From the NCBI RefSeq assembly GCF_013009075.1, contig NZ_CP053108.1, positions 2,356,001-2,420,000 on the forward strand: a stretch of 64,000 bases of DNA, written 5' to 3'. The position numbers and the translations under genes were made by a program. Under the pieces are notes generated by a model, which saw only the letters and a program-made list of their open reading frames with translations, was not told the DNA's origin and did not search any database. Origin of the DNA: Halomonas sp. TA22. GTDB lineage: Bacteria; Pseudomonadota; Gammaproteobacteria; Pseudomonadales; Halomonadaceae. Positions 4,454 to 63,384 of this stretch are shown here, in pieces. How positions within the stretch are numbered: the first letter of the stretch is position 1; the number at the start of each line of letters is the position of its first letter.

Positions 4454-4528
4454 TATCGCCGCCGCGTCCTCGTTGCGCTATCTTGAGGCCCAACGACCAT
4501 CTTGACGCTGCGTCCGCCAGGAGAACCC

Positions 4529-4942
4529 ATGACCGTCATGACCGCCGCCGCCATCGAGGAGTTTCTCGACGAGGTCTTTCCGCATCGCCAAGGCACCATC
4601 GAGGGCGTCGACGAGATGCGCGCCACCATGAGTCTGGCCATTGAAGACGAGCATCTGCGCCCCGGGGCCTGTGTCTCGGGTCCGAGCATGATGGGACTGG
4701 CCGATGTCTGCCTCTACGTGGCAATCCTTGCCCAGATCGGCCCCGAGCCGATGGCGGTGACCACCGACCTGAACTGCCATTTTCTGCGCCGTGCACGTGG
4801 CGATCGGGATTTGATCGCCAATGCTCGTATCATCAAGCTGGGCCGGCGGCTGGCCGTGGGCGAGGTGGAGCTGTTTTCGGCCAGCGACGAGGCGCCGGTG
4901 GCGATCGTCACGGCGACCTACGCGCTGCCCGACTCCGACTGA
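4529..4942 (+). CDS. PaaI/YbgC-type hotdog thioesterase
   Basis: 137 residues. The segment GACVSGPSMMGLADVCLYVAIL followed by AVTTDLNCHFLRRA is the hotdog-fold helix and strand of PaaI-like acyl-CoA thioesterases; the Asp in LADV is at the usual catalytic position. The substrate is unknown. The ATG at 4529 is preceded by AGGAG at a good distance. The 3' end overlaps the convergent DUF423 gene by 25 bases. The ribosome-binding segment AGGAGAACCCATG is complementary, with one mismatch, to the candidate small RNA at 7281-7391. Confidence 0.8.
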   Translation: MTVMTAAAIEEFLDEVFPHRQGTIEGVDEMRATMSLAIEDEHLRPGACVSGPSMMGLADVCLYVAILAQIGPEPMAVTTDLNCHFLRRARGDRDLIANARIIKLGRRLAVGEVELFSASDEAPVAIVTATYALPDSD

Positions 4943-7280: not shown

Positions 7281-7307
7281 AAAAAAACGCCACCCAAGCG
7301 GGTGGCG
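7281..7307 (-). terminator. Intrinsic terminator of the candidate sRNA
   Basis: An 8-bp perfect stem (CGCCACCC/GGGTGGCG, 7288-7295 with 7300-7307), 4-nt loop, followed on the minus strand by seven T (7281-7287). It is too far from the AEC gene end (7449) to be explained only by that gene, and a separate promoter lies between them. Confidence 0.85.
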
Positions 7308-7391
7308 GTAAGACCGTGACTAGCTAGATGAGGAGAAACCATGGCAGAAAACCTGACATTCTCTGCGATGGGTGGCGTTTGGCGACGCCAC
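7281..7391 (-). ncRNA. Candidate Fur-regulated small RNA (RyhB/PrrF-like architecture)
   Basis: About 111 nt, deduced from a promoter at 7398-7426 and an intrinsic terminator at 7281-7307. The predicted 5' end forms a 7-bp hairpin (7372-7378 with 7385-7391). The middle is unstructured and contains CCATGGTTTCTCCTCAT (minus strand), an exact antisense to a Shine-Dalgarno plus start codon. The 3' end is the terminator hairpin plus seven T. I do not recognise the sequence as RyhB, PrrF or NrrF. An alternative reading is a 41-codon plus-strand ORF (7341-7466, MAENLTFSAMGG...) with a good AGGAG site, but its upstream side has no promoter as convincing as the minus-strand one. Confidence 0.6.
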
Positions 7392-7397
7392 ATTTTC

Positions 7398-7426
7398 AAG
7401 ATAATAATTCTCATTCCCCGCGTCAA
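7398..7426 (-). promoter_or_regulatory. Sigma-70-like promoter overlapped by a Fur box
   Basis: On the minus strand: -35 TTGACG (7421-7426), 17-bp spacer, -10 TATCTT (7398-7403). Overlapping the spacer and -10, plus strand GATAATAATTCTCATTCCC (7400-7418) agrees with the 19-bp Fur consensus at 14 of 19 positions; the core AGATAATAATTCTCA fits the 7-1-7 model with two mismatches. Fur bound here would block RNA polymerase directly, as at ryhB and prrF. Confidence 0.6.
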
Positions 7427-7448
7427 GCGTAACGAGAATCTTTTTTAT

Positions 7449-8363
7449 TTAACTCACCAGTTTTAGCCATAGCGGCAGGCTCACCATCGCCAGCAGTGTC
7501 TGGCCGGTGATCAGCGCGGCCATCAATTCGGCGTCGCCGCCCATCTGGCGTGCAAGAATATAGGCCGATGTTGCTGTGGGTAGGGCGGCAAACAGCAGCG
7601 CCACATCGCGGCTGATCGGGTCGAGTCCCAGGGTCAGCGCAATGATCAGCACCAGGGCCGGCATCAGCACCAGCTTGATGGCATTGGTCACCCAGACGCC
7701 GAGGTCCAGGCACAACAGGGCGCTTGGTTTTAGTGCCACTCCCACCGCCACCAGACCCAGCGGCAGCGCGGCGCTGCCGAGCAGAGCGACGCTGCTGGCG
7801 CTCCAGCCGGGCAGGCCGATGCCGCTCACGTTGAGCGCGATACCGATCAGGCAGCCAACGATCAGTGGATTTCTCACCAGTGCCAGCAGGCTCTTGCCCA
7901 GGCTCGAGGGGCCCAGCGTACCGGCAGCGATAAAACTGATCACGCACAGCACATTGACCACCGGCACCATCAGCGCCACGGCAACCGCTGCGACCGTGGC
8001 ACCGGCACTGCCATGCAGCGCACTGGCGCCGGCCACGCCGACGTAGGTATTGAAACGCAGGGCGCCCTGAAATACCGACGTGAATGCTGCGGCCTCCAGG
8101 CCTAGCCGCGTGCGAAGCGACCACAGCAGGATGCCAAACAGCAGCATGGCGCCAAGCAGGGCGAGGGCGACGCGCGCGATGGGCACCTGGGTGACATCGG
8201 CCTCGGCCAGGTTGGCAACCAGCATGGCGGGAAACAGCAGATAGTAGATAAGCCGTTCGAGCTGCGGCCAGAAGTCGCCACTGGGTAGCCGCCGCCAGCC
8301 TAAGGCGGCACCCAGCAGGATCAGTAGAAACAGCGGTCCCAGCGCACTTGCCACACCATTCAT
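7449..8363 (-). CDS. AEC family (auxin efflux carrier-like) permease
   Basis: 304 residues with about ten hydrophobic segments, typical for AEC/bile-acid-fold carriers (Mem_trans family). Seen: a conserved early segment IYYLLFPAMLVANLAEAD, FNTYVGVAGAS, VRNPLIVGCLIGIALN and a C-terminal LPTATSAYILARQMGGDAE, which is the usual family end motif. Substrate is unknown; characterised relatives carry malate, malonate or amino acids. The ATG at 8363 is preceded by AAGGAG. It is monocistronic, divergent from the SCO1 pair. Confidence 0.88.
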   Translation of the reverse strand: MNGVASALGPLFLLILLGAALGWRRLPSGDFWPQLERLIYYLLFPAMLVANLAEADVTQVPIARVALALLGAMLLFGILLWSLRTRLGLEAAAFTSVFQGALRFNTYVGVAGASALHGSAGATVAAVAVALMVPVVNVLCVISFIAAGTLGPSSLGKSLLALVRNPLIVGCLIGIALNVSGIGLPGWSASSVALLGSAALPLGLVAVGVALKPSALLCLDLGVWVTNAIKLVLMPALVLIIALTLGLDPISRDVALLFAALPTATSAYILARQMGGDAELMAALITGQTLLAMVSLPLWLKLVS

Positions 8364-63002: not shown

Positions 63003-63018
63003 ATTGGTGGAGGCGGCG
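63003..63018. repeat. attR: right 16-bp direct repeat at the ssrA 3' end
   Basis: ATTGGTGGAGGCGGCG, identical to 43918-43933. Minus-strand bases 63018-63005 are the 3' CGCCGCCTCCACCA of tmRNA. Confidence 0.9.
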
Positions 63019-63384
63019 GGAATTGAACCCGCGTCCGCCGGTACTCGCTCTTCGGCTCTACATGCTTAGGTCCGTCTTTTGATTTAACGATATGGACTCC
63101 GACGAGCAGGATTCCATACCGCGATTCTTCAAATGTTTAGCGATTGACGTGAAGACACCACCAATCGCGATCCTATCATCTTTAGCTCGTATCCCCTCCG
63201 CGATGAATAGGCACATCGCTTTGGGGCCAGGCTAACTACAGCAGGGGTTTAAGCTGCCAGAGCGCCTTGAGCGTAGTTTTCGTCGTTTGCGACTATTAAG
63301 TTGTGATGTTGGATTTACGAGATACATCACGCTCTCGGCATGCACCTAGGAGGTTGTCACCAGCGTCGAAGCCATGTCGCCCCC
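63005..63384 (-). ncRNA. ssrA: Transfer-messenger RNA (tmRNA, ssrA)
   Basis: 380 nt. The 5' end GGGGGCGACATGGCTTCGAC and 3' end with GGTTCAATTCCCGCC (T-arm) and CCA are diagnostic. The 7-bp acceptor stem pairs GGGGGCG with CGCCTCC. The tag reading frame (63249-63290, minus) encodes ANDENYAQGALAA and ends TAA. tmRNA with SmpB rescues stalled ribosomes and marks the peptide for proteolysis. The 3' end was restored by the island integration. Confidence 0.97.

Follow-up and report, generated by a model that had tools for sequence, protein, structure and literature searches.

Within the 64,000-nucleotide stretch of the Halomonas sp. TA22 genome analysed here (the window), a minus-strand locus between trmB and a gene for an AEC transporter is very probably a single-copy gene for a divergent, iron-sparing small RNA of the PrrF family. 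The RNA would be repressed by Fur and would block ribosome-binding sites (RBSs) through an unpaired core, with acnB as its best-supported target. On the sequence side, this reading draws on the anatomy of the gene, its conserved structure, its homology to PrrF, the presence of fur and hfq, and the co-variation between the seed of the RNA and the acnB site. PrrF is a Fur-repressed, Hfq-binding RNA that represses mRNAs of iron proteins (PMC6321483, PMC13104616, PMC4211561). Candidate native PrrF genes, often in tandem, were found across the Halomonadaceae and in several other families of the Pseudomonadales, and these appear to be new, as does a switch of seed in Halomonas and Vreelandella; the open PMC literature, to which our search was confined, contained no report of a native PrrF in Halomonas.

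Anatomy of the gene

The promoter outlined in the preliminary description was recovered in full by a consensus scan of the minus strand: a -35 element TTGACG (7421-7426), a 17-bp spacer and a -10 element TATCTT (7398-7403). Most halomonad copies also keep TTGAC at -35, and the homologous -10 of relatives is of the T(T/A)(A/T)CTT type. Over this promoter, as in PrrF, lies a Fur box, GGGAATGAGAATTATTATC (7400-7418, minus strand), which overlaps the spacer and the -10 element and is kept in relatives. It had been credited with 14 of 19 consensus positions; the box is indeed present, and the count against the consensus GATAATGATAATCATTATC is corrected to 15 of 19. This is the top match within the 64-kb window, and five simulated order-1 sequences of window length and the same dinucleotide make-up reached a maximum of 13. 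Upstream of 133 of 141 copies of the gene, we detected a Fur box with at least 11 of 19 positions, mostly 12-15, while random stretches of the same loci, taken as a control, mostly gave 8-10.

The predicted 111-nt RNA (7281-7391, minus strand) is supported by its fold, by an alignment and by matches to RF00444 and to a halomonad covariance model (R1, below), its start being placed from the -10 element. Its predicted fold (-44 kcal/mol, z = -4.7, equalled by none of 200 shuffles) agrees with the 5' hairpin and open middle proposed earlier, and comprises three hairpins and an unpaired core, with roughly 31 consecutive nt left open. In order along the minus strand, these are a 5' hairpin of 7 bp (7372-7391), a long middle hairpin with the conserved loop GUCAG (7339-7371), the unpaired pairing core TCTCCTCATCTAGCTAGTCACGGT (7313-7336), defined by alignment, and an intrinsic terminator (7281-7307). 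The terminator, likewise anticipated, has an 8-bp, covarying stem (7307-7288) followed by seven T (7287-7281).

The gene is single-copy in TA22; a search of the same genome for further copies returned only chance matches of 14-24 bases (E > 1), and a search of phages gave no match. The genome encodes hfq, and its main fur gene (G000:C1:2421438-2421803) lies 1.4 kb past the end of the window, with the tmRNA gene (63005-63384) upstream of it.

Conservation and covariation across the Halomonadaceae

Homologs were detected in 247 of 275 Halomonadaceae genomes, representing 20 of 24 genera (BLASTN, E ≤ 0.01), the weaker of these matches spanning the core and terminator only. A covariance-model scan placed the RNA within 3 kb downstream of trmB, on the opposite strand, at 52 of 62 named halomonad trmB loci (from Halomonas, Vreelandella, Billgrantia, Litchfieldella, Franzmannia, Chromohalobacter, Salinicola, Kushneria, Onishia, Modicisalibacter and others), and at none of 16 trmB loci outside the family. 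Other genera also hold copies at places away from trmB.

Many halomonads carry tandem arrays of two to four adjacent copies. Among pseudomonads, a tandem organisation has been described as exclusive to P. aeruginosa (PMC6321483); across the wider family, tandem PrrF is common. Three Vreelandella-type loci (L139, L140 and L082) contain three or four near-identical copies spaced by about 183 bp, with the Fur box retained in the first copy only; the remaining copies may depend on read-through from the first promoter or may be decaying.

We aligned 22 canonical transcripts and found that 88% of cells pair and that 15 of 28 stem pairs show double changes. These changes affect 4 of 7 pairs in the 5' hairpin, where 98% of cells are paired, and 7 of 13 pairs in the middle hairpin. 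Many are true replacements (GC to AU, CG to UA), although the kinship of the copies inflates the counts. On four of five measures, the observed covariation was unmatched by 500 shuffles (0/500), and sliding the partner along the alignment lowered pairing to 37-48%. The conservation test suggested in the preliminary description thus speaks clearly for a non-coding RNA.

These comparisons bear on two other readings of the locus. It might be a coding gene, formed either by the 41-codon open reading frame on the opposite strand (7341-7466) or by a frame open through the RNA. The former has a good Shine-Dalgarno sequence (AGGAGAAACCATG), but this follows from its being complementary to the seed. 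Codon-level conservation of that frame, named earlier as the outcome that would speak for coding, is absent: the same ATG opens anywhere from 4 to 83 codons across 63 copies, so the frame is not preserved, and the RNA stems covary. What the preliminary description had set against a non-coding gene was therefore not observed, the non-coding reading stands, and we consider a coding gene exceedingly improbable. Hardly more probable is that the locus merely forms the 3' end, with the terminator, of the AEC transporter gene upstream on the same strand. The locus starts just past the stop codon of that gene at 7449, and no terminator is predicted in between. Against this, the promoter and Fur box belong to the small RNA gene itself and are conserved, the gene recurs in tandem copies that mostly each carry a Fur box, and it occurs in other genera at sites away from trmB.

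Homology to PrrF

At default cut-offs, Rfam annotates only the tmRNA in the window and nothing at the small RNA locus. In the Rfam check proposed earlier, run as an E-value search, the PrrF model RF00444 aligned over its full length (1-150) with 48.5 bits (E = 1.5e-7). Its gathering score is 90 bits, a value that none of 101 Halomonadaceae genomes reaches. A gathering score is a curation threshold, set on known members of a family. We treat the sub-threshold score as a failure of automatic annotation rather than as missing homology; PrrF is missed here by public databases because its sequence has drifted.

Since RF00444 contains the promoter and Fur box, from which roughly half of the bits derive, we also scored the transcript alone. 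PrrF then remained the top model by bit score (23.5 bits, E = 0.019), while the short ncS54 model gave E = 0.013 through the terminator; taken alone, this is weak evidence. The matches to ncS54, RyhB and other weakly scoring Rfam models were all terminator-based and were set aside.

We therefore turned the comparison around with a covariance model (R1) built from halomonad transcripts only, devoid of promoter and Fur box, and ran R1 and RF00444 each over the same 245 genomes of the order. RF00444 exceeded its cut-off in nine genomes, all of family f21, which we take to be the Pseudomonadaceae. In all nine, R1 recovered PrrF at identical coordinates (E from about 1e-11 to 4e-7). Five further families (f2, f7, f20, f36 and f39) contain PrrF-like RNAs according to both models, under the Rfam cut-off.

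The cores tell a similar story. The conserved PrrF core UCUCCUCAUCAGGCUAAUCACGGU is matched at 21 of 24 positions in the window, and at 22 of 24 in most sampled Halomonadaceae. The form common in Pseudomonadaceae, TCTCCTCATCAGGCTAATCACGGT, is carried by the majority of f21 genomes as well as by f2 and f36; f7 and a single f21 genome have TCTCCTCATCAAGCTAATCACGGT; and TCTCCTCATCAAGCTAGTCACGGT characterises canonical halomonads. One Pseudomonadaceae copy (G294) is a single base off the halomonad consensus. Identity runs through GCTARTCACGGT (GCUARUCACGGU), far past the anti-Shine-Dalgarno part. Members of f39 have an altered core, CTCTCTCATCAAGCTAATCACGGT, possibly another seed change.

The strongest competing explanation is an independent iron-responsive RNA, whose likeness to PrrF would stem only from an anti-Shine-Dalgarno core, a Fur box and a terminator, as in the analogues RyhB, NrrF and BrrF. 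The score below the Rfam cut-off and the share of bits owed to the promoter region fit such an origin, and anti-Shine-Dalgarno sequences are expected in analogues. Nevertheless, we judge it improbable: the identity of the core extends well beyond the anti-Shine-Dalgarno part, the halomonad transcript-only model recovers PrrF in every Rfam-certified genome, the families in between have genes of like shape whose cores are intermediate in sequence, and RyhB attains an E-value of only about 1, at the terminator end. Identity beyond the anti-Shine-Dalgarno part, together with the reverse model matches, argues for homology to PrrF rather than analogy. The preliminary description was thus right to place the RNA among Fur-controlled RNAs of the RyhB, PrrF and NrrF type, but the reciprocal covariance models identify what it took for an unrecognised, new RNA as a diverged PrrF.

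Co-variation of the seed and the acnB site

The targets of PrrF in P. aeruginosa include acnB, which encodes aconitase B (PMC6321483). Across halomonads, the acnB RBS tracks the seed, with CTTGATGAGG pairing with CCTCATCAAG, AATGAGAGGG with CCCTCTCATT, and ACTAGCAATGAGG with CCTCATTGCTAGT. In genera with the canonical seed, CCTCATCAAG, the acnB RBS has CTTGATGAGG or a close form directly before a GTG start. In the Vreelandella-type genus g23, with seed CCCTCTCATTG, all seven acnB sites examined contain GAGAGGG (within AATGAGAGGG in four, GATGAGAGGG in two and AAGAGAGGG in one). In two Halomonas (g8) genomes with seed CCTCATTGCTAG, acnB has ACTAGCAATGAGG, fully complementary over 13 bases.

When acnB was compared with the RNA of the same genome in 39 genomes, the longest perfect complement had a mean of 8.3 nt, a value reached in none of 10,000 permutations that reassigned RNAs to genomes, a scheme that ignores shared descent. 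The preference was reciprocal: the mean complement of g23 acnB was 9.3 with the g23 RNA versus 5.3 with the canonical RNA, and that of canonical acnB was 8.0 with the canonical RNA versus 5.1 with the g23 RNA. Exceptions, with a complement of 5 nt, were G054, G063, G006/G008 and G129/G130, and two g10 genomes have no acnB. Counted conservatively, this amounts to two independent paired changes. This comparative co-variation across genera makes acnB the best-supported candidate target. We lean towards the view that the PrrF seed of Halomonas and Vreelandella was rewritten and the acnB RBS followed at least twice, leaving a natural record of sRNA-target co-evolution, with the rest of the regulon possibly rewired.

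Several lineages depart from these patterns. At position 7326 (minus strand), TA22 has a private T for the A of canonical halomonads; no other sampled canonical copy has CATCTAGC in place of CATCAAGC, and the change shortens the contiguous acnB pairing from 10 bases to 7. Two g11 loci, L045 (Larsenimonas-like) and L144, carry two tandem copies, and their acnB sites (AACGAGG or AACGAAGG) show no complementarity, so acnB may have left the regulon there. Species also differ in how many CTC repeats precede CATTGC, the seed being TCTCCTCTCATTGC in Halomonas cerina (L086) and TCTCCTCCTCATTGC in H. organivorans (L084).

Other candidate targets fared less well. Duplex energies singled out none of the classical targets in TA22: among 85 start regions, acnB ranked 16th, sdhC 36th and sodB 72nd. 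The energies for sodB and sdhC were not above background here, and the case for sodB as a target in TA22 is unconvincing. We left this ranking out of the evidence because simple duplex energies cannot separate targets from genes with a strong Shine-Dalgarno sequence. A thioesterase start in the window (4519-4531), proposed earlier as a target, does have the described complementarity with one mismatch; we rejected it, as this is a generic Shine-Dalgarno match and relatives conserve nothing further.

Proposed mechanism and implications

Homology to PrrF and the anatomy of the gene lead us to expect iron-regulated expression, binding and repression by Fur, dependence on Hfq and repression of acnB. 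In iron-replete cells, Fe-Fur would occupy the box that overlaps the -10 element and keep the gene off. In low iron, the RNA of about 111 nt would be transcribed up to its U-rich terminator, the presumed Hfq site. Its unpaired UCUCCUCAUC core would then pair with the RBSs of mRNAs for dispensable iron proteins, with acnB as the best-supported target, and block their translation.

Our results extend the range of PrrF from the Pseudomonadaceae to the Halomonadaceae and further families of the order, where current Rfam thresholds miss it. There is also a practical point. Knock-down tools built on the P. aeruginosa PrrF1 scaffold are being brought into Halomonas, an industrial chassis (PMC12164125, PMC13101641, PMC13414033), and cross-talk with a native PrrF could arise. 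The co-variation of seed and acnB site, in turn, makes sRNA-target co-evolution directly testable.

Comparison with known systems

The closest known system is PrrF itself (RF00444; PrrF1/PrrF2 of P. aeruginosa and ArrF of Azotobacter). The TA22 gene shares with it, in the same order, a Fur-box promoter, a 5' hairpin, a second hairpin, an open core and a terminator, along with 21 of 24 core positions and reciprocal model matches. It differs in its diverged stems and second hairpin, its sub-cut-off score and its single copy, and members from Halomonas and Vreelandella bear another seed, CTCCCTCTCATTGC or CTCCTCATTGC. RyhB (RF00057) would be alike in its working, as a Fur-repressed, RBS-pairing, iron-sparing RNA, but shows no homology beyond the match at the terminator end (15.7 bits against a cut-off of 55). 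BrrF (ncS63) of Burkholderia is a low-iron RNA with similar predicted targets; it is reported to lack its own Fur box, to adjoin hemP in every case and to be without relatives outside the Burkholderiales (PMC7377471). The weak ncS54 match obtained here concerns a different Burkholderia RNA and is terminator-based.
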